A stretch of 64,000 nt of DNA from Pseudomonadota bacterium (GTDB lineage: Bacteria > Pseudomonadota > Gammaproteobacteria > Steroidobacterales > Steroidobacteraceae), in NCBI GenBank assembly GCA_021779535.1, contig JAJYAM010000003.1:92501-156500 (forward strand), given 5' to 3'. Positions within the stretch are counted from its first letter, which is position 1. Each line of letters starts with the position of its first letter. The translations under genes and the position numbers were made by a program. The notes below the pieces were generated by a model. It did no database searches. It was not told the DNA's origin and saw only the letters and a program-made list of their open reading frames with translations. Shown piece by piece: positions 15,237-27,392 of this stretch.

Positions 15237-16622
15237 ATGAACCGGCATCGTACCGATCCGCCCGCATCCGGCGCGACCGACCCCGGACTCGTCTCCCGCG
15301 ACCTGCGCGTCGTGTGGCATCCGTGCACCCAGATGAAGGATCACGAGTCGCTGCCGCCGATCGCGATCCGGCGCGGCGAAGGGGTCTGGCTCGAAGACGT
15401 CGACGGCAACCGCTATCTCGACGCGGTGAGTTCCTGGTGGGTGAACCTGTTCGGGCATGCGAACCCGCGCATCGCCGCGGCCGTGGCGCGGCAGGCGCAG
15501 ACGCTGGAGCACGTGATCTTCGCGGGCTTGACCCACGAGCCCGCGATCCGGGTCGCCGAGCGCCTGGTATCGATCGCGCCGCCGGGGCTGGGGCGCTGCT
15601 TCTTCGCCGACAACGGATCCGCTGCGGTCGAGGTCGCGCTCAAGATGAGCTTTCACTACTGGCACAACCGCGGCAACACGCGCAAGACCCGGTTCGTCGC
15701 GCTCGCGAACGGTTATCACGGCGAGACGCTCGGCGCGCTCGCGGTCGGGGACGTCGACCTGTACAAGTCGCTCTATCGGCCGATGTTGATGGACGTGATC
15801 ATGGCGCCGTCGCCGGACTGCTATGCAAGGGATCCCGGGGAATCCTGGGAGAGCCATTCGCTGCGTCGCTTCGAGTCGATGGAACGGATCCTCGAACGGC
15901 ACGCCGACGAGGTCGCCGCGGTGATCGTCGAGCCGCTGGTGCAATGCGCCGGCGGGATGCGGATGTACCATCCGGTCTATCTCGCGCGGCTGCGCGAGGC
16001 CTGCGATCGCTTCGGCGTTCACCTGATCGCGGACGAGATCGCGGTCGGATTCGGGCGCACCGGCACGATGTTCGCGTGCGAGCAGGCGCGGATCACGCCG
16101 GATTTCTTGTGCTTGTCGAAGGGGCTCACGGGCGGATTCCTGCCGATGTCCGTCGTGATGACCCACGAGGAGGTCTACGACGCGTTCTACGACGAATACA
16201 CGTCGCAGCGCGCGTTCCTGCATTCCCACAGCTACACCGGCAATCCGCTCGCGTGCAGCGCGGCGCTCGCAACGCTCGACCTGTTCGCCGAGACGGACGT
16301 CCTGGAATCCAATCGCGCGAAGGCCGCCCGGCTCGGGCGGCGCGCACGGGAGCTCGAGGCGCATCCGCACGTCGCCGAGGTCCGGCAATGCGGGATGATC
16401 GTCGCGATCGAGATGGTGAAGTCCAAGGCGACCCGTGAACCCTACCCCTGGCAGGAACGGCGGGGCCTGCGCGTCTATCGGCACGCGCTTTCCCGCGGTG
16501 TGCTCTTGCGCCCGCTCGGCAACGTGATCTATTTCCTGCCGCCCTACGTGATCGACGAGGCCGGTATCGACTTGATCACGAGCGTCGCGGCCGAGGGCAT
16601 CGAACTCGCGACGTGCGACTGA
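15237..16622 (+). CDS. bioA: Adenosylmethionine-8-amino-7-oxononanoate aminotransferase
   Basis: RDLRVVWHPCTQMKDHE...; YLDAVSSWWVNLFGHANPRI; LCLSKGLTGGFLPMSVV. Confidence 0.94.
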   Translation: MNRHRTDPPASGATDPGLVSRDLRVVWHPCTQMKDHESLPPIAIRRGEGVWLEDVDGNRYLDAVSSWWVNLFGHANPRIAAAVARQAQTLEHVIFAGLTHEPAIRVAERLVSIAPPGLGRCFFADNGSAAVEVALKMSFHYWHNRGNTRKTRFVALANGYHGETLGALAVGDVDLYKSLYRPMLMDVIMAPSPDCYARDPGESWESHSLRRFESMERILERHADEVAAVIVEPLVQCAGGMRMYHPVYLARLREACDRFGVHLIADEIAVGFGRTGTMFACEQARITPDFLCLSKGLTGGFLPMSVVMTHEEVYDAFYDEYTSQRAFLHSHSYTGNPLACSAALATLDLFAETDVLESNRAKAARLGRRARELEAHPHVAEVRQCGMIVAIEMVKSKATREPYPWQERRGLRVYRHALSRGVLLRPLGNVIYFLPPYVIDEAGIDLITSVAAEGIELATCD

Positions 16623-17398
16623 CTCGGCTGTACGTCGACGGGCCGCTCGCCTCGGGCGACCTGCTGCAGCTGCCCGCGCCGGCCGCGGCGCACGTCGCGC
16701 GCGTGCTGCGGGCGCGCGACGGCGATCCGGTCGTGCTCTTCAACGGCGACGGCCGCGAGTACCAATCGCGGATCGAGACCGTTCGCGGCTCGCGCGTCGC
16801 GGTCGCGGTCGGCACCGCGCGTACCGTCGATCGGGAGTCGCCGGTCGCGCTCACGCTGCTGCAATGCCTGCCGCGCGGCGACCGGATGGATTGGATCGTG
16901 CAGAAGGCGACCGAGCTCGGCGTCGAGCGCATCGTGCCCCTGGTGAGTCGCCGCAGCGTGGTGAGGATTTCCGCGGGGCAGGCCGAATCCAAGGCGATGC
17001 ATTGGCGCGCGATCGCGGTGGCCGCTTGCGAGCAATCCGGCCGGAACCGGGTACCGGCCATCGACGCGCCCCGGGGGCTCGACGAGCACCTCGGCTCGAT
17101 CGGATCGGCGGGCATGCGGTTCGTGCTCGATCCGGACGCCGCGCCGCCCGCGGCGGACGCCGCCTGGGTGCACGCGGCGACACCGATCGCGCTCGACGTC
17201 GCGGTCGGCCCGGAAGGGGGATTCGAGCCGCAGGAGCTGGACGGCTTTCGCATCGCCGGCTATTGCGGCGTGCGCCTGGGGCCGCGGATCCTGCGCACCG
17301 AGACCGCCGCGATCGCGGCGCTCGTGTGGCTGCAAACGCGCTTCGGCGACCTGCGCGTCGGGGAGTCCGCCGGACCCGCCGACGACGACGCGCGCTGA
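16613..17398 (+). CDS. rsmE: 16S rRNA (uracil1498-N3)-methyltransferase
   Basis: SPOUT family: QKATELGVERIVPLVSRRSVV; VGPEGGFEPQELDGF; LGPRILRTETAAIAAL. Confidence 0.94.
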   Translation: MRLTRLYVDGPLASGDLLQLPAPAAAHVARVLRARDGDPVVLFNGDGREYQSRIETVRGSRVAVAVGTARTVDRESPVALTLLQCLPRGDRMDWIVQKATELGVERIVPLVSRRSVVRISAGQAESKAMHWRAIAVAACEQSGRNRVPAIDAPRGLDEHLGSIGSAGMRFVLDPDAAPPAADAAWVHAATPIALDVAVGPEGGFEPQELDGFRIAGYCGVRLGPRILRTETAAIAALVWLQTRFGDLRVGESAGPADDDAR

Positions 17399-17428
17399 GC
17401 GCGCGCCGGCGGAAGACGCCGTCCCGGC

Positions 17429-17454
17429 GCGGTTCGTCGGCTCCGTCGAACCGC
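17429..17454. terminator. Candidate hairpin between convergent rsmE and cupin gene
   Basis: GCGGTTCG-tcggctccgt-CGAACCGC, perfect 8-bp stem in the convergent intergenic gap; no clear U tract. Confidence 0.4.
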
Positions 17455-17455
17455 C

Positions 17456-18088
17456 TCAGCGGCTCCCGGCCCCGGCCGGCACGAGCCGTGCGCTGCAATC
17501 GAGTCCGTGGCCGCGCCAAAGGTAGAGTGCGAGCAGCGGTTCGCTCGCGGTGCGCATCGCGTGAATCGCGCCGCTCTCGTGCCGCACCGCGGTGCCCGGC
17601 GGACGCGCCGTCCACGGCTCGCACCCCCGTTGCCACTCGGCCGTGCCGGCGAGCGGCACGTAGATCTCCTCGGCCGGATGGCGATGGCCCGGGTAGTGGA
17701 CCTCGGGGCCGAGCAGCAGCAATCCGCCCGACAACCGCTGGCATCGGACCGGCCCGGCGGGGCCGACGAACTCGGTCCATGCGTAGTTCTCGAGGAATCG
17801 TGCGCCGACCTGCGCCCTCGAGTACGTCCGGCGCCAGACCAGATCCGGCACGGCGCGGGCGAGTGCGGCCGCGAGACGCCGATCGAGCGCACGGGTGCGC
17901 GCCAGCGTCCCCGGCAGGAAGCGCAGCGCCGGCAAGGGCCGATCGGAACGACGACGCGGCGGCGCGGCCGCGCACGGCCACCGGGGCCATTCGTCGAGGA
18001 AGCGTGCGAGTTCCGGCGCGTGAAGACCGGCGAGGTGCGCGCGAACCGCGCGCAGCAGCTCGAGCAGATCCCGCGTGCGGGCGGCCAC
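17456..18088 (-). CDS. Cupin-fold DMSP-lyase-family-like protein (DddQ/DddL-like)
   Basis: FLENYAWTEFVGPAGPVRCQRLSGGLLLLGPEVHYPGHRHPAEEIYVPLAGTAEW...SGAIHAMRTASEPLLALYLWRG: HxHxxxExxY metal motif plus downstream His characteristic of the family; GTG start at 18088. Confidence 0.78.
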   Translation of the reverse strand: MAARTRDLLELLRAVRAHLAGLHAPELARFLDEWPRWPCAAAPPRRRSDRPLPALRFLPGTLARTRALDRRLAAALARAVPDLVWRRTYSRAQVGARFLENYAWTEFVGPAGPVRCQRLSGGLLLLGPEVHYPGHRHPAEEIYVPLAGTAEWQRGCEPWTARPPGTAVRHESGAIHAMRTASEPLLALYLWRGHGLDCSARLVPAGAGSR

Positions 18089-18092
18089 GGGA

Positions 18093-18566
18093 TCAGCCGA
18101 GTACCGAGGTTTCCTCGGCGATCATCTGTTCCAGCCGCTGCAGATCGGGAATCAGCGGCGTCTCGTTGACCATGCGAATCTGGCATATCACCGGAACGCG
18201 CTCGGGGAATCCGCGCGAGGGATCGGGACGGATCACCTCGGCGTTCACCCGCACGAGCTGCGGGAAACCCTGTGTCAGGATCCCGAAACATCCGGATTGC
18301 AGCTTGCCGTCGATCGCGTTGAACACCACCACCCGCGTGCGGCCCGACACGACCGGTATCGCCTGTCCCAGGACGCCCTCGAAGGAAACCACCGGGACCT
18401 GGACTTCGTTCCAGGTCACGAGCCCGAGGTACCACGGCGGCGCATTGGACATCGGTGCGGGCGCCTGCAAGCCGATGACCTCGGCGACGCAGGTGCGCGG
18501 CACGATCAAGCGTTCGCCGACCAGCGGTACCAGCAGGCTGTACAGTTCGTCACGCAGGGTCGACAT
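18093..18566 (-). CDS. chpC: CheW-like chemotaxis coupling protein (ChpC-like)
   Basis: CheW fold: LYSLLVPLVGERLIVPRTCVAEVIG...WYLGLVTWNEVQVPVVSFEGVLG; directly downstream of chpA. Confidence 0.82.
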   Translation of the reverse strand: MSTLRDELYSLLVPLVGERLIVPRTCVAEVIGLQAPAPMSNAPPWYLGLVTWNEVQVPVVSFEGVLGQAIPVVSGRTRVVVFNAIDGKLQSGCFGILTQGFPQLVRVNAEVIRPDPSRGFPERVPVICQIRMVNETPLIPDLQRLEQMIAEETSVLG

Positions 18567-18581
18567 GCGCGGCTCCCGATC

Positions 18582-21500
18582 TCACTGGCCGACCGCGCTG
18601 CGGCGATTCACCAGCGGCTCGATCGCATCGAGCAACTGGCTTTCCTGATAAGGCTTGCCGAGATAGTCGTTGACGCCGAGTTCGATCGCGCGCGCACGGT
18701 GTTTCTCGCTGACCCGCGAAGTGATCATCACGATCGGTATGTCGCGCAGCCGCGGCTCGTTGCGTACGTGCGCGGCCACTTCGTAGCCGTCCATCCGCGG
18801 CATCTCGATGTCCAGCAAGATCACGTCCGGCTTCAGGTCCTGCAGGATCGAAACGGCTTCGACGCCGTCTTTCGCCGTGACGACGCGCATGCCGTTGCGT
18901 TCGAGGAGCCGCTGCGTCACGCGCCGCACCGTGATCGAATCGTCGACCACCAGCGCGACGGTGCGCCGCTCGCGCTGCTCGGTGACCGTGTCGGCCGGTC
19001 GCGACCGCCACTCCGAGCGCACCAACGCACCCATGTCGAGGATGACCACGATCCGGCCGTCGCCGAGGATGGTCGCGCCGGCGATGCCGCGAATCCCGGA
19101 GATCTGCGGCCCCAGCGACTTCACGACGATTTCGCGGCTGCCGACCAGCTCGTCCGTGACCAACGCCGTCGAATGCTCGCCGGCGCGGATCAGCACGACC
19201 GCCATCGACACGTCGGCCTCGGGCAGGGGCGACGCGCCGAGCCCGACGAAATTACCGAGATGCTGGAACCGGTACTTCTGGCCGCCGTAATCGAACGGCG
19301 GTCCGTCGCGCCCGAGATGGCGCGCGACGATGCTGCGCGGCAGGCGGACGACGCCTTCGACGGTCGCGAGCGGCAATGCATAGGTTTCCTCGCCGACGCG
19401 CACGATCAACGCCTGGCTGATCGCGAGCGTGAACGGCAGGCGGATCGTGAATCGCGAGCCCTTGTCGAGCGTCGACTCGATGAACAGGCCGCCGCCGAGT
19501 TTCTTCACCTCGGTGGCGACGACATCCATGCCGACGCCGCGACCCGCCGCCTGGGTCACGCGACCGGCCGTGCTGAATCCCGGCTCCAGGATCAGCTGCA
19601 TCGCCTCCTCGTCGGTCAGGCGGGATTGCGGGTCGACGAGCCCGAGCGCGATCGCCTTGTCGCGGATCAGCCCGACGTTGATGCCCGCACCGTCGTCGGC
19701 GACCACGATCACGACCTCGGCACCGTCGCGCTCGAGGCTCACCGTGATCCGGCCGACCGCGGGCTTGCCGAGCGCAGCTCGCCGCTCCGGGCTCTCGATC
19801 CCGTGAACGACCGCGTTTCGCAGCATGTGCTCGAGCGGCGGCACCATGCGCTCGAGCATCTGCCGGTCGAGTTCCGCCGCCGCACCGTCGACCGTGAGTT
19901 CGGCGCGTTTCCCGGTGTCGTTCGCGGCTTGTCGGACGAGCCGGGTGAGCCGCTGCACGTGCCGCTGGAACGGCACCATTCGCGTCCGCATCAAGCTGTT
20001 CTGCAGCTCGGTGATCACGCGGGCCTGCTGGGCGAGGAGATTCTGCGCCTCGCGAACGAGGCTCTCGAGCAAGCCCTGAATGCTCCCGACGTCGCTCGAG
20101 GTCTCCGCGAGCGCCCGGGAGTACTGCTGGAGCGCCGAGTAGCGGTCGAGCTCGAGCGGGTCGAATTCGCCGCGGCGGGGATCGGCGTCGGGGTGCCGAT
20201 GCAGAACCTGGGTCTCGGTCTCGATCTCGAGGCCGCGCAACTGCTCCTTCAACCGCGTCACGGTCCGCGCGAGCTCCGCGAGATTGAAGTCGATCGAGCC
20301 GACTTGTTGATCGAGCCGCGAGCGGAAGATGCTGACCTCGCCGGCATTGTTCAGCATCTTGTCGAGCAAGTCCGCGTCCACACGCGCCATTTCCGCGCGT
20401 TCGACCGGAGCGGTATCGCGCCCCGGCAGCATCGCGGCGACCGTGAGTTCGAGGCTCGACGCGGCGAGATCCGGCGCCACCGGTCCCGCCGGCATGACCG
20501 GCTCGATCGCGGCCGGTGCTTCCCCGCCGGCCGCGGGCACCGCCGCGCCACTCACCGCTTCCGGTGACGGCGGACGAGCCTCGGGGGCGGGCTCCACGAT
20601 CCCGATCGGCGCGGCGGGCGCCGCGGGCGCCGCCGGCACGGGTTTCGCGGCCGTGGCCGGTGCCGGCTCGGAGAGGCCCGCGCCGAGCGCACGGATGCGG
20701 CCGATCAGCGCCTCTGCCGGCGGTGGCCACGTGCCGGCGCTGACGAGATCGCGCATCAGCGCAAGCTCGTCGAGGCTCACCTGCAGCACCGCATGGGTGG
20801 ACTCGGTCGCCGGAATGGCGCCGTTCGCGATCTGTATCACCAGGGTCTCGAGCTCGTGGCTCAAATCCCCCATCGGCGCGATCCCGGCCATCCGTGCGCC
20901 GCCCTTCAGGGTGTGCAACTGGCGCTGCAATTCGGCGACCGGCGCTTTGTCGTTCCGATCCGCGCTCCACGCCGCGAGCGACGCCTGTGCGCTCTCGAGA
21001 AGCTCCGTGGCTTCTTCGCTGTAGATGTCGGCGATCTCGCGGTCGAAGCCTTCCGGCGGCGTCGCGGCTTCGCTGCGCGGCGGCGGCATGGCGGCAGGCG
21101 CGGCGACCTCCGTCGCGGCGGTCGTCGCGGCGATCCCGGACGGCAGCACTTGCGAGATCTCGGCATCCTCCTCGGCACGCGCGAGTTCGGCGTCGAGCGC
21201 GGCGTCCAGCGCGCGGATGCGCTCGAGCAGCATCGGTTGTTCGGCGAAGAACACCGTCGACTCGTCGATGTGCGCGACGACGTTCTCGATCGCGGCCACC
21301 GCATCCTCGAGCAGCCCGAGCGCGGCCTCCGGCAGGCCGAGACCGCTGTCGTAGGCTTTGCGCAAATACTGGTTCAGCGGCTCGGTGACGCGGATGCCGT
21401 GGCGTGCCTCCGCCATTTTCGAGCTTCCGCACAGGGTGTGAACCGCGCGATAGATGGTCTCCGGGAGATCGTGCGGGGCGAGGCGCCCGCGCTCGGTCTG

Positions 21501-23918
21501 CAGATACCGACGAATCGCCGCAAGGTGGGTCTCCGCCTCCTTGCTGAAGATGTCGTGGAGCATCGGATCCATCGTCGCGGGCGCCGGCGGCGCCGCCACG
21601 ACCGCGGCCTCGTGCGCGTCGGCCGGTTCGGCGGGTTCGGGGTTCTCCTCCGATCCGGCAGCCGCGGCGTCCGCGCGGACGTCCGCAGAGCCTCCGGCGG
21701 GTTCACGCACGACGACCGTCGCATGCGCTCGCGCGATGAGCTGATCGACCGCGACCCGCGCCGGTCGTCCGGTCTCGAGCTGCTCGATCACCTGCGGGAG
21801 CGCGTCGATCGCGGTCCGCACGACCGAGATGATCTCGGGCGTTCGCGTGAGGGTCTTGTCGATCAAGCGGTTCAGCAGATTCTCGATCGACCAGGCGAAA
21901 TCGCCGATCACGCGGGCGCCGACCATTCGCCCGCTGCCTTTGAGCGTATGGAAGCTGCGCCGCATCGCGTTGAGCGAGTCTCCGTCCATCGGATTCTGTT
22001 CCCAGAGCGGGAACCGCCGGCCGATCGCCGCCATCTCGTCCTTGGCTTCCTCGATGAACAGTTCGACGAGCTGGGGGTCGGGCGCCGAATCCGGCCCCGA
22101 CGGCGGCGGCGGCGCGGACACCGCGGGTGCGGTCGTGAGCACCACCGTGTCGCGGGACTCGATCCTCACGGTCGTCGCCGCCTCGGCGCCGGCCGGCGGA
22201 CCGGTCGGCGCGGCCGGCAGCCGCGTCGCGTAGTCTTCGGCGAGCGCTTTCACGCAGGTTTCGGCGTTGTCGAGCATGTACCACGGATCGTTCCGGCCGC
22301 TCTGGATCGTCTCCATGTAGTATTCGATGCTGACGATCGCATCGGCGATTCGCTCGAGGCGCAGCGGGTCGGGCGGGATCGCCCCGGGCTCGACGAGCGC
22401 GCGGACGTGCACCGCGAGCGCGTCCATCAACTCCGCGGCGCGGGTCTTGCCCAGCATCAGCAGACCCGCGGTGATCCCGCGCAGCAGCTGCGGGACGTTG
22501 TCGAGCCCCTGCGGCGACCCGTCACCGGTCTTCTGGACCGCGATCGAGATCGCTTCCTTGATGCGTGCGAGATTCACGCTGCACTCGCGCAGCACCGCCT
22601 CGCTCACGAGCCGGAAATCCAGGTCTTCGGACTCGGCGCCGGACGGCGCGGCGGTCGATGGCAGGATCAGCCGCACCAACTGGTCGTCGAGACTGTCTTC
22701 GACCGACAACAGCACGCCCGCGACCTTGAGCAGCGCGTCTTCCGCGGGCGGCGCCCCCGACGCGAGGATCGTGCTCAAATCGGCGGCCTCGCGACGCACG
22801 CGCTGCCGCAGTTCACCGAGGCCGAGGACGCCGAGCGTGTCGCTGATCTTCTTCAGCAGCTCGAGCTGCGGGGCAAGATCCTCGACGCGTCCGCCGCCGC
22901 GGCGGACGAAGATGTCGAGCACATCCTTGACCTTCGCCAGGTCCTCCTTGATCGCGGCGCCGACGGTGCGCATGAGCTTGACGCTCGGCGCGGAGAGGCT
23001 CGCGCGCTCCTGTTCGATCGCATCGTCGACCGGCAGGAGCTCGGTGAGCTTGAACGACGCGCGCACCGCGCCGATCCGGCCGCCGCCGGCGGACGATCGC
23101 GCGACGTAGTACAGGAGGTTGTTCAACAGCTCGACCGGCGGATTGTCGCAATAGCGCTCCTCGCCGAGGTCGTAGAGCACCTTGATCTGCCGGTCGGTCT
23201 GGCCGAGGAGCCGCTTCAAGGTCGCGCTCGCCTCGAGGCCGTTCGCCTGCAGGGCCTCGAGCACGGCGCCGGTGACCCACCAGAACTGGAACACCGGCTG
23301 CGTGGTGGCGACCTGCTCGAGTTTCTCGGCGACTTTCGCCATGATCTCCAGGCTCTGCTCGGTCCGCTCGCCGCGGATCAGCCCGAGCAGACCCACTTGG
23401 AAACGCGGGCGCAAACGGCGCGCCCACAGCGCGACCGCGGCCTGCCCGTCCGCGTCGGAGCGCCCACGCGGGCTCTGGTCGGACTTCAGGTTGAGCAGCA
23501 GCAGAGTCCCTTCGGACAGCAGCGGGCTGCCGCGCACCGAGCGCAGGTCGTTGAGCAGCGGCAGCAGGATCAACGCGAGGTCGCGGCCACCGGAGAGGAC
23601 CCGCTCGAGATAGGTCGGCAACTGCACCATCGCCCGCATCAACGCATCGAGTCCCTCGATCCGCCGCTTCTCGTCGTCGTTGAGTTCCAGCAGATAATGG
23701 GCGACGTGCTCCATCTCCTCCGCGAGCAACGCCGCTCCATACACCTCGACCACGCGCAGCACGCCGTGCGCGGCGTGCAGTTGTTCCGCGCACTTCTCCA
23801 GCGATTCGCGATGATCGGAACGCTCGGCATAGTCTTCCAGTGCCGTGCGCGCATCGCCGAGCGTCGCCGCGAGTTCCTTGGCGACGACGTGCAGCGTTTG
23901 GGAGCTGATGTCGGTCAT
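18582..23918 (-). CDS. chpA: Pil-Chp hybrid chemotaxis histidine kinase (Hpt/CheA/CheW/REC)
   Basis: Hpt motifs HTLKGSGRMVG, HTLCGSSKMAEARHG, HTLKGGARMAG; HATPase NAVVHGIESPERR, DDGAGI, GRGVGMDVV; C-terminal REC VVDDSITVRRV...LLDIEMPRMDGYEV. Confidence 0.95.
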   Translation of the reverse strand: MTDISSQTLHVVAKELAATLGDARTALEDYAERSDHRESLEKCAEQLHAAHGVLRVVEVYGAALLAEEMEHVAHYLLELNDDEKRRIEGLDALMRAMVQLPTYLERVLSGGRDLALILLPLLNDLRSVRGSPLLSEGTLLLLNLKSDQSPRGRSDADGQAAVALWARRLRPRFQVGLLGLIRGERTEQSLEIMAKVAEKLEQVATTQPVFQFWWVTGAVLEALQANGLEASATLKRLLGQTDRQIKVLYDLGEERYCDNPPVELLNNLLYYVARSSAGGGRIGAVRASFKLTELLPVDDAIEQERASLSAPSVKLMRTVGAAIKEDLAKVKDVLDIFVRRGGGRVEDLAPQLELLKKISDTLGVLGLGELRQRVRREAADLSTILASGAPPAEDALLKVAGVLLSVEDSLDDQLVRLILPSTAAPSGAESEDLDFRLVSEAVLRECSVNLARIKEAISIAVQKTGDGSPQGLDNVPQLLRGITAGLLMLGKTRAAELMDALAVHVRALVEPGAIPPDPLRLERIADAIVSIEYYMETIQSGRNDPWYMLDNAETCVKALAEDYATRLPAAPTGPPAGAEAATTVRIESRDTVVLTTAPAVSAPPPPSGPDSAPDPQLVELFIEEAKDEMAAIGRRFPLWEQNPMDGDSLNAMRRSFHTLKGSGRMVGARVIGDFAWSIENLLNRLIDKTLTRTPEIISVVRTAIDALPQVIEQLETGRPARVAVDQLIARAHATVVVREPAGGSADVRADAAAAGSEENPEPAEPADAHEAAVVAAPPAPATMDPMLHDIFSKEAETHLAAIRRYLQTERGRLAPHDLPETIYRAVHTLCGSSKMAEARHGIRVTEPLNQYLRKAYDSGLGLPEAALGLLEDAVAAIENVVAHIDESTVFFAEQPMLLERIRALDAALDAELARAEEDAEISQVLPSGIAATTAATEVAAPAAMPPPRSEAATPPEGFDREIADIYSEEATELLESAQASLAAWSADRNDKAPVAELQRQLHTLKGGARMAGIAPMGDLSHELETLVIQIANGAIPATESTHAVLQVSLDELALMRDLVSAGTWPPPAEALIGRIRALGAGLSEPAPATAAKPVPAAPAAPAAPIGIVEPAPEARPPSPEAVSGAAVPAAGGEAPAAIEPVMPAGPVAPDLAASSLELTVAAMLPGRDTAPVERAEMARVDADLLDKMLNNAGEVSIFRSRLDQQVGSIDFNLAELARTVTRLKEQLRGLEIETETQVLHRHPDADPRRGEFDPLELDRYSALQQYSRALAETSSDVGSIQGLLESLVREAQNLLAQQARVITELQNSLMRTRMVPFQRHVQRLTRLVRQAANDTGKRAELTVDGAAAELDRQMLERMVPPLEHMLRNAVVHGIESPERRAALGKPAVGRITVSLERDGAEVVIVVADDGAGINVGLIRDKAIALGLVDPQSRLTDEEAMQLILEPGFSTAGRVTQAAGRGVGMDVVATEVKKLGGGLFIESTLDKGSRFTIRLPFTLAISQALIVRVGEETYALPLATVEGVVRLPRSIVARHLGRDGPPFDYGGQKYRFQHLGNFVGLGASPLPEADVSMAVVLIRAGEHSTALVTDELVGSREIVVKSLGPQISGIRGIAGATILGDGRIVVILDMGALVRSEWRSRPADTVTEQRERRTVALVVDDSITVRRVTQRLLERNGMRVVTAKDGVEAVSILQDLKPDVILLDIEMPRMDGYEVAAHVRNEPRLRDIPIVMITSRVSEKHRARAIELGVNDYLGKPYQESQLLDAIEPLVNRRSAVGQ

Positions 23919-23941
23919 CGTTGCGTCCGGATTCGTGCCGC

Positions 23942-26023
23942 TCAGGTACCGAACCCGCGCGCCTTGCGGATCCGGCCGGCGTCCTCGACCGCGGCGGCGA
24001 CCGCGGCGGGAACACCCGCGTCGCTCGGGGTCCCGACCGGCTCCTTCAGCGCCGGCAATCGGGCCGAGGTCGAGCCGACGACCGTCGTCGCGCCGGCGTC
24101 GGCCAGGCGGAAGCCGGCGACCGACTTGCGCAACTGCGCCGCGAGGGCCGCGAGCTTCGACACCGATGCGGAGGTGGCCGAGGAACCGTCGGCGGTCTGG
24201 CTCGAGATCTCGCGGAGCACCTGCATGTTCTTCGAGATGTTCCCGGAGACGGCCGCCTGCTGCCGGGCGCTCGCGGAGATGTTCTGCACCAGACTGGCGA
24301 TCTGGTTCGACACCTGCTCGATTTCCTCGAGCGCCGCGCCGGCGTTTTCGGCGAGCAGCGCGCCGCCGACGACGTCGGTCGTGCTGCGCTCCATCGAGAC
24401 CACGGCCTCATTGGTGTCGGTCTGGATCGTGCGCACCAGCACCTCGATCTGTTTCGTCGCGTTCGCGGCGCGCTCCGCGAGCCGCTGGACTTCGTCGGCG
24501 ACGACCGCGAAGCCGCGGCCCGCCTCGCCCGCCATCGACGCCTGGATCGACGCGTTGAGCGCGAGGATGTTGGTCTGTTCGGCGATGTCGTTGATGAGCT
24601 CGACGATGTTGCCGATCTCCTGGGAGCTCTCGCCGAGGCGCTTGATCCGCTTGCTCGTCTCCTGGATCGTCTCTCGGATCGCGTTCATGCCGTCGATCGT
24701 TCGCCGGACGGCATCGCCGCCCTTGTGCGCGATGTCGACCGAATGCCGCGCGACGTCCGAGCAGCGTTCCGCGTTCCCCGAAACTTCCTCGATCGACGCG
24801 GCCATCTCGGCGACGGACTCGCTGGCAGCCGAGATCTGGCGCGACTGCGCGGCGCTCGCCTTCGCCATGTGTGCCGCGGCGGCCTGGGCCTGCTTGGTCG
24901 CTCCGTCGAGCTGGATCGCACCCGCGGTGATCGTCGTCACGAGCTCGCGCAGCGCCTCGATCGCATAATTGATCGAGTCCGCGATCGCGCCGGTGATGTC
25001 CTCGGTCACCGTCGCCTGGACCGTGAGGTCGCCGTCGGCGAGGTTCGACAGCTCGTCGAGCAAGCGCATGATCGCGTCCTGGTTGCGGTCGTTCTCGCGC
25101 GCGCGCATCTCGGCTTCGCGACGCCGATCCACCGCATTGCGGTACACCCACACGAGCGCGCCGAGGCAGCTGAGCGCGATCGCGAGCGCGACGATCACCG
25201 CGAGTCGCCGGACGCCGAGCCCTCCGGCGCCCGCCCCGCGTACGACCCCGGCCTGGCCCGCGAGCGCATCGGCCGATCTCGAGAGCGCCGCGACGGCCGA
25301 CTGCGCCTTCGCGACCGGTGCGGCCGCCCCGATCGCGGTGCGCACCGCGGCCGAGAAGAGGCCGTTCGACTGCACGAACGCGGCGGCCGCCGCCGCATTC
25401 GCGCCGGCGGCCGCGGTGTTGCGCGTTCGACCCCCGGTCAGCCCGCGCGCGAGCGTGTCGAGCGTTTCGAGACCGTCGGCGAGGCGTTGCGCGGTCGGCC
25501 CGGTCCTGCCGACGCCGCTCGCGAGCGCGTCGACGTCGAGTTGCAGTCGCTGCACGGTGACTTGGAAGCGGTCGAGGTGCGCGCCGGCGCCGGCCAACGG
25601 GCCTGCGCCCCCGGTGCTCGCCAGGTCACCGAGCCGCGACAACAGCTGCGGGGCACGCTCGCGGACCTGCCGGGCGGCCTCGCCGATCGTTTGCACCGCC
25701 GGCCGCGCGCTCTCGACCGCCGCGACCGACGCGCTCAGTGCGCGCCAGTCGGCCTCGCCGCCGCCGGCCGCGCGACGCGCGGTGCTTGCGCGCCTGAAAT
25801 CGGCCGCGAGCGCATCGAACGACGCGGCGTCGCCGTGCAGCGCACTGCGGGCCTCGAGCGGCAGCCCTCGCAGCGCGAGTGCGAGGGTCGAGCGGGCGTC
25901 GCCGCCGCCGGGTCCGCCGCCCGCGAACGTCAGCGCGCCCGCGACGAGCACGCCGAGCGCGGCCAGTCCGGCGAGCACCGGCGCGATCAACGCCCATCGA
26001 TTGGCTTCATTCTTTCCGTTCAT
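23942..26023 (-). CDS. pilJ: Pil-Chp methyl-accepting chemotaxis protein
   Basis: MCP signalling core EQTNILALNASIQASMAGEAGRGFAVVADEVQRLAERAANATKQIEVLV; two TM segments; context pilI-pilJ-chpA. Confidence 0.94.
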   Translation of the reverse strand: MNGKNEANRWALIAPVLAGLAALGVLVAGALTFAGGGPGGGDARSTLALALRGLPLEARSALHGDAASFDALAADFRRASTARRAAGGGEADWRALSASVAAVESARPAVQTIGEAARQVRERAPQLLSRLGDLASTGGAGPLAGAGAHLDRFQVTVQRLQLDVDALASGVGRTGPTAQRLADGLETLDTLARGLTGGRTRNTAAAGANAAAAAAFVQSNGLFSAAVRTAIGAAAPVAKAQSAVAALSRSADALAGQAGVVRGAGAGGLGVRRLAVIVALAIALSCLGALVWVYRNAVDRRREAEMRARENDRNQDAIMRLLDELSNLADGDLTVQATVTEDITGAIADSINYAIEALRELVTTITAGAIQLDGATKQAQAAAAHMAKASAAQSRQISAASESVAEMAASIEEVSGNAERCSDVARHSVDIAHKGGDAVRRTIDGMNAIRETIQETSKRIKRLGESSQEIGNIVELINDIAEQTNILALNASIQASMAGEAGRGFAVVADEVQRLAERAANATKQIEVLVRTIQTDTNEAVVSMERSTTDVVGGALLAENAGAALEEIEQVSNQIASLVQNISASARQQAAVSGNISKNMQVLREISSQTADGSSATSASVSKLAALAAQLRKSVAGFRLADAGATTVVGSTSARLPALKEPVGTPSDAGVPAAVAAAVEDAGRIRKARGFGT

Positions 26024-26041
26024 TCGCGCCTCCGAGCACGC

Positions 26042-26620
26042 TCAGCTCGCCGCCTGCAGGAAGCTTGCGCTCTCCAGGAGGCCCCTGATGCTCAAGACCG
26101 GCCACAGTTCGCCGCCGCGCCGGAACGCGCCCGCGAGGTAGCTGTCGCAACGAATCACCGTCGGCGGCGGTTCGGCGCTGAATTCGCCCTCGGCGAAGCG
26201 CCGGAACCCGTGCACCTCGTCCACGACCAGGCCCGCGGGGATCTCGCGGTGATTGACGACGACCACCCGGGTGTTCCGCCCGATCGCGGTCGCGCCGCTG
26301 CCGAGGAACTGCCGCAGGTCGATCAGCGGCAGCAGTTGACCGCGGACGTTCGCGAGTCCCTTGATCCACGATTTCGCGCCCGGAATTCGAGTCACCGACG
26401 GCGGATAACCGAGTACCTCACGCGTCTCCTCGCGAGCGATCAAGAACGTCTCCCCGCCGATCCGGAACGCGACGCCGACCCATTCGCGCCCGGCCGGGGT
26501 TTCCGCGGCGGTCCCCTCGTTCTTCGTGCGGCTGCGCCGTTCGATCTCGCGCAGGAGCTCGAACGGGCGATCCCTGAGGTCGCGAAGGCCGGCGCCGGCG
26601 ACTCCGTCGGCCGCGTTCAT
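26042..26620 (-). CDS. pilI: CheW-family protein
   Basis: CheW motifs: WVGVAFRIGGETFLIAREETREVLGYPPSVTRIPGAKSWIKGLANVRGQLLPLIDLRQFLG. Confidence 0.92.
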   Translation of the reverse strand: MNAADGVAGAGLRDLRDRPFELLREIERRSRTKNEGTAAETPAGREWVGVAFRIGGETFLIAREETREVLGYPPSVTRIPGAKSWIKGLANVRGQLLPLIDLRQFLGSGATAIGRNTRVVVVNHREIPAGLVVDEVHGFRRFAEGEFSAEPPPTVIRCDSYLAGAFRRGGELWPVLSIRGLLESASFLQAAS

Positions 26621-26982
26621 ACCGCGAGCGCCGCTTGCGCCTTTTGCACCAGGGTTTGCACCGACACGGGTTTCACCAGGTAGTCGACGGCACCTTGCCG
26701 CAGACCCCAGACGCGATCGGTCTCCTGCCCCTTGGTCGTGACCATGATGATCGGGATCAACCGCGTCTCCGGATCGTTCGCGAGCGCCCGCGTCGCCTGA
26801 TAGCCGTTCACCCCCGGCATCACGATGTCCATGAAGATCAGGTCGGGCTTCATCGCTTTCGCCTTGCGGATGCCCTCGGCGCCGTTCTCGGCGGCGGCCG
26901 TTTGGAACCCGTGCTTCTCGAGTGCCTTCTGCATCACGAACACTTCGGTGGGTGAATCGTCGACGATCAGGATCAATGCCAT
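26617..26982 (-). CDS. pilH: Single-domain response regulator
   Basis: MALILIVDDSPTEVFVMQKALEKHGFQT...DLIFMDIVMPGVNGYQATRAL...VTTKGQETDRVWGLRQGAVDYLVKPV. Confidence 0.94.
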   Translation of the reverse strand: MALILIVDDSPTEVFVMQKALEKHGFQTAAAENGAEGIRKAKAMKPDLIFMDIVMPGVNGYQATRALANDPETRLIPIIMVTTKGQETDRVWGLRQGAVDYLVKPVSVQTLVQKAQAALAV

Positions 26983-26996
26983 CGCTGAGTTCTCCG

Positions 26997-27392
26997 TCAC
27001 TTGCCCACGTGCGCCTCGATCGCGCCCAGCAACTCGTCCTTCGTGAACGGCTTCGTCAGGTAGTGCTCCGACCCGACGATCCGTCCCCGCGCGCGGTCGA
27101 ACAATCCGTCCTTGCTGGACAGCATGATCACCGGTATCTGCTTGAACACCTTGTTGTGCTTGATCAGCGAGCACGTCTGGTAGCCGTCGAGCCTCGGCAT
27201 CATGATGTCGACGAACACGATGTCCGGTTGGTGGTCGGCGATCTTCGACAGCGCGTCGAAACCGTCGATCGCAGTGAACACCTCGCAGCCTTCCTTGCTG
27301 AGCAGCGTCTCGGCGGTCCGGCGGATCGTCTTGCTGTCGTCGATGACCAGTACTTTCAAGCCGGTCAATTTGGTCTTTTCGGTGGCGCTCAT
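26997..27392 (-). CDS. pilG: Single-domain response regulator
   Basis: LKVLVIDDSKTIRRTAETLLSKEGCEV...DIVFVDIMMPRLDGYQTCSLIKHN...YLTKPFTKDELL. Confidence 0.94.
   Translation of the reverse strand: MSATEKTKLTGLKVLVIDDSKTIRRTAETLLSKEGCEVFTAIDGFDALSKIADHQPDIVFVDIMMPRLDGYQTCSLIKHNKVFKQIPVIMLSSKDGLFDRARGRIVGSEHYLTKPFTKDELLGAIEAHVGK

Follow-up and report, generated by a model that had tools for sequence, protein, structure and literature searches.

A DMSP-lyase-like cupin gene behind the Pil-Chp genes of a soil or acid-water bacterium and five close relatives: a pattern that fits a single capture

In Pseudomonas, the Pil-Chp operon has the gene order pilGHIJK-chpABCDE. ChpC of P. aeruginosa is a linker that is dispensable for basic twitching and needed for twitching responses to several chemical signals (PMC12632253). 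Among the cupin lyases, DddQ has six residues that are reported to be essential, Tyr120, His123, His125, Glu129, Tyr131 and His163 (PMC4437653), and the cupin DMSP lyases that have been tested all act on both DMSP and DMSOP (PMC10686828). The title of a survey by Lei 2018 (cited in PMC6331615) indicates that the family holds bona fide lyases as well as enzymes of unknown function.

We analyzed a window of 64,000 nucleotides in which a cupin gene stands behind a run of Pil-Chp genes. The run keeps the Pseudomonas order pilG-pilH-pilI-pilJ-chpA-chpC, but unlike the Pseudomonas operon, where chpD and chpE lie behind chpC, it ends with the cupin. All of these genes are on one strand with intergenic gaps of at most 23 nt, and the cupin is the last of them (Table 1), as the original prediction had it. 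The coordinates also bear out the predicted GTG start at 18088, 4 nt past the chpC stop (18093) and on the same strand; on the reverse strand the junction reads CTCGGC-TGA-TCCC-GTG-GCC (chpC stop, 4 nt, cupin GTG). Of the convergent hairpin proposed at the end of the cupin gene, a 12-nt inverted repeat in the 57-bp gap stood up to scrutiny, but it is without a T-run, and the interval 17300-18700 yielded neither a consensus promoter nor a consensus terminator. Also missing from the run (18093-27392), in comparison with Pseudomonas, are pilK (CheR-like) and chpB (CheB-like), so that the genes for receptor adaptation are absent there.

Table 1. Features of the chpC-cupin locus and the Pil-Chp run in the window.
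Feature	Position	Strand	Notes
rsmE, convergent neighbour	16613..17398	+	syntenic behind chpC throughout genus
inverted repeat, 12-nt, 92% complementary	17429..17454	.	inside 57-bp gap, convergent cupin/rsmE
cupin ORF, DMSP-lyase-like (PF16867)	17456..18088	-	210 aa, GTG start
cupin motif 2 IHAMRT	17549..17566	-	residues 175-180, includes H176
cupin motif 1 HYPGHRHPAEEIY	17660..17698	-	residues 131-143: Y132, H135, H137, E141, Y143
chpC-cupin junction TGA-N4-GTG	18086..18095	-	4-nt spacing also in G022, G019, G006
chpC, CheW-like linker	18093..18566	-	Pfam CheW
chpA, hybrid histidine kinase	18582..23918	-	3 Hpt, HATPase, CheW, receiver (Pfam)
pilJ chemoreceptor	23942..26023	-	
pilI, CheW-like	26042..26620	-	Pfam CheW
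pilH response regulator	26617..26982	-	Pfam receiver
pilG response regulator	26997..27392	-	Pfam receiver

The cupin matched the Pfam family PF16867 (DMSP_lyase) over residues 44-187 at 112.8 bits (cut-off 27, E = 1.7e-32), and its membership in this family is confirmed. In the PDB it matched DddQ (E ~1e-21), and DddQ structures were the only full-length sequence matches; no NCBIfam profile match was found. With E values this low in Pfam and the PDB, the family match is far beyond chance. An AlphaFold model of the cupin was built from 64 aligned proteins (pLDDT 94.5, pTM 0.91) and searched with Foldseek. The top six matches were all DddQ (E 1e-15 to 8e-20), aligned over the whole length with TM values of 0.73-0.77, while the next cupins followed at ~5e-9 and aligned over ~115 columns. 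DddK (5tg0) was a weaker fold match than DddQ.

The metal-binding pattern of DddQ and DddL had been read from the motif HYPGHRHPAEEIY and a downstream IHAMRT. Both are present in the ORF, and with them all six DddQ active-site residues: Y132, H135, H137, E141, Y143 and H176 align with DddQ Y120, H123, H125, E129, Y131 and H163. These positions are invariant in 17 proteins from the genus and family; in the 64 aligned proteins each is either invariant or conserved to at least 90%. Like the six, W191, the Trp of LWRG, matches both DddQ and DddL. Two other positions set the cupin apart from DddQ: at Y189 DddQ has Val (Val176) and at W152 it has Phe, where DddL has Tyr or Trp at the first and Trp at the second. 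The alternation of the strand with W191 suggests that Y189 and W152 face the pocket.

We placed the cupin in two trees, the larger of 130 proteins. There the DddQ structures (4la2, 5jso, 4b29 and 5cu1, ~30% identical to the cupin) formed one clade (100/99) and the DddL-type proteins formed their own on a long branch (100/100), with the window lineage outside both. The smaller tree agreed on this placement, and a sister relation to DddQ was not rejected (p-AU 0.353). With DddL of the acuR-acuI-dddL type the cupin shares the metal and Tyr residues and the Trp152- and Tyr189-like positions; unlike the cupin, DddL has Asn at the position of H170 and a first motif that is one residue longer. One DddL-type protein in the tree has an AcuI-like neighbour, a gene with no counterpart beside the window cupin, which is also without ddd context.

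The window cupin thus belongs to the large set of DMSP-lyase-like cupins, in a lineage that is mostly terrestrial, and its nearest named relatives are MAGs from bog, palsa and other non-marine sites. Few Gammaproteobacteria have PF16867 (8 of 369 sampled, E below 1e-10); in a sample of the phylum it is commoner (35 of 399, mostly outside Gammaproteobacteria). DMSP lyase-like cupins of Rhizobiales, Rhodospirillales and Paracoccaceae belong to the same Pfam family, are roughly 40-50% identical to the window cupin and have the same residues, but several of them sit in uptake or catabolic operons, unlike the window copy behind chpC.

All 23 genomes of the genus contain chpC, and in six the cupin stands behind it: the window genome, G022, G019, G006, G002 and G005, the last counted as linked with its cupin cut by the contig end. 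Among the remaining informative genomes, convergent rsmE comes behind chpC, either directly or after intervening sequence, which in several genomes includes a convergent gene for a product of ~620 aa; chpC therefore looks like the usual last gene. Ten further members of the genus carry the cupin at other sites (~39-47% identity over the alignment). A tree of chpA/chpC grouped the six linked genomes with G013, which is without the cupin, in one 7-species clade (98/95), which argues for one gain and one loss. The single gain is drawn mainly from this tree, as the cupin tree united the G002 copy with the core four only loosely (87/82 in the 130-protein tree, 26% of bootstraps in the smaller one). 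Among the best 80 cupins from 84,980 species genomes, four were linked to chpC, and all four were in the linked clade.

The chpC-cupin adjacency thus recurs in related genomes, but it is confined to one clade and goes back to one gain, and the cupin is not a component that stands behind chpC wherever the operon is present. Synteny behind chpC (rsmE, bioA and cobO, in a block chpA-chpC-...-rsmE-bioA) extends across the genus, and because gene order there is conserved genus-wide, retention of the adjacency would be expected without special selection. The linkage in this soil or acid-water bacterium and five close relatives fits one capture kept by gene-order conservation.

The junction is exactly 4 nt long in the window genome, G022, G019 and G006, with a longer spacer in G002, and its recurrence in separate MAGs rules out an assembly artefact. 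The cupins of the window genome and G002 are 46% identical (dS about 0.9). Pairwise dN/dS among the four close linked genomes was ~0.29-0.49 for the cupin, compared to 0.05-0.11 for chpC and 0.22-0.33 for rsmE, so the cupin is under purifying selection that is weaker than that on chpC. Co-transcription of chpC and the cupin is likely, as is re-initiation at the GTG; selection for coupled expression could be an alternative cause of the exact conservation of the gap.

We consider it rather probable that a metal-dependent lyase was captured once at the operon end, is co-transcribed there, and does a metabolic job that is most likely unconnected with twitching signalling. The capture would have taken place in the ancestor of the 7-species gammaproteobacterial clade, where the gene came to lie at the 3' end of pilGHIJ-chpA-chpC; today it would probably be translationally coupled to chpC via the 4-nt gap. 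By analogy with DddQ, H135, H137, E141 and H176 would hold the metal, and Tyr143 with Tyr132 would act on a small carboxylate that has a leaving group in the beta position, attacking it at the alpha-carbon; beta-elimination would yield an alpha,beta-unsaturated acid and set the leaving group free as a neutral molecule. An onium or betaine-type compound, not necessarily DMSP, is the probable natural substrate. It counts against this explanation that no catabolic partner gene adjoins the window cupin, that the dN/dS of the cupin is above that of chpC, and that selection for coupled expression may lie behind the exact gap. As found, the gene adds a clean, testable lineage to the lyase-like cupins whose real substrates are in question, and it warns that capture at an operon end should not be read as function.

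The genomic contexts of relatives, which vary by lineage, hint at methylated onium or betaine substrates from which an unsaturated acid would be released. A Gemmobacter relative lies among ABC uptake genes and genes of CoA-dependent acid metabolism (AMP-ligase, enoyl-CoA hydratase), a Rhizobium relative among genes for a flavin oxidoreductase, ETF and formaldehyde oxidation, a Sinorhizobium relative with ABC permeases, and another family member near an MTTB-type methyltransferase. Neighbour clustering of 80 relatives was rejected as a clue to a single shared substrate because of this variation.

It appears unlikely that the cupin is a genuine DMSP/DMSOP lyase, converting imported DMSP to acrylate and DMS with the acrylate handled by AcuI. 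The conserved DddQ active-site residues and the activity of every tested cupin DMSP lyase on both substrates do argue for it, as do a YhdH/AcuI equivalog (438 bits, on another contig) and OpuAC-type compatible-solute binding genes in the window genome. The presence of AcuI says little, however, because it is so common in the family (158 of 200 genomes); within the linked clade it had looked promising, being absent from G013, which also lost the cupin, but its co-occurrence was set aside as uninformative about acrylate production. No BCCT transporter was found in the window genome, no ddd or acu genes adjoin the cupin, and Tyr189 and Trp152 take the place of Val176 and Phe of DddQ. The non-marine origin of the relatives and, by the title of the survey, the presence in the family of enzymes of unknown function also weigh against DMSP. 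As the cupin falls in neither the DddQ nor the DddL clade, the caution in the original prediction that the substrate may differ from DMSP was well placed.

A functional link to twitching had also been proposed, through co-expression of a sulfonium or other small-molecule lyase with the chemosensory system. On this reading the cupin would make or remove a small chemoeffector, and co-expression with ChpC would tune twitching to a nutrient. The idea is attractive because ChpC of P. aeruginosa is needed for chemical-signal responses, and both the persistence of the adjacency over large divergence and the identical junction in the four closest genomes speak for it, but we regard it as doubtful. The linkage is one clade-specific event, the same cupin family is unlinked in about ten other genus members and occurs in unrelated contexts elsewhere, and general synteny accounts for the retention. 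In addition, PilJ of G019 (L028:352-1743) and G006 (L031:14370-15755) is missing ~230 residues between its two transmembrane helices relative to its window counterpart (23942-26023). The missing region is the periplasmic sensing domain; both genomes have an otherwise intact system and keep chpC-cupin, which argues against a cupin that feeds a ligand to PilJ. Nothing in the sequences connects the cupin with the signalling proteins, and beyond likely shared transcription the proposed link is unsupported. A chemosensory role is possible, although it is improbable that the cupin is now a working part of Pil-Chp in the clade, clearing or generating an onium or betaine metabolite that steers surface motility, perhaps intracellularly where the periplasmic sensor of PilJ was lost. 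A true tie to Pil-Chp would make the enzyme the metabolic counterpart of chemical signalling in pilus-based motility.

It is likewise improbable that the same metal site serves an oxygenase or isomerase reaction or a ligand-binding sensor, as the enzymes of unknown function named in the Lei 2018 title and the diverse contexts of the family might allow, since the two catalytic Tyr are as strongly conserved across the 64 aligned proteins as proton abstraction expects.

An MscS-like channel gene lies between the cupin and rsmE in G022 (L027:6496-7845), G019 (L028:8502-9854) and G006 (L031:6273-7610). It was rejected as a cupin partner, being absent at the window locus and having its G002 homologue on another contig; MscS matches in the window genome were weak only. 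In another branch of the genus, a gamma-glutamyltranspeptidase gene lies directly 3' of the cupin on the same strand (L075, L081, L083, L084 and L121). The cupins of two relatives (L041:7647-8378 and L039:8106-8789) have N-terminal extensions with RR-containing, Tat-like signals recognized by eye, which suggests export. On a plasmid of Rhizobium sp. N324 (L256:4749-7805), ETF genes lie between two DMSP-lyase-like cupins; their operon also holds genes for glutathione-dependent formaldehyde oxidation and for a flavin oxidoreductase, and it looks like N-methyl or betaine catabolism.
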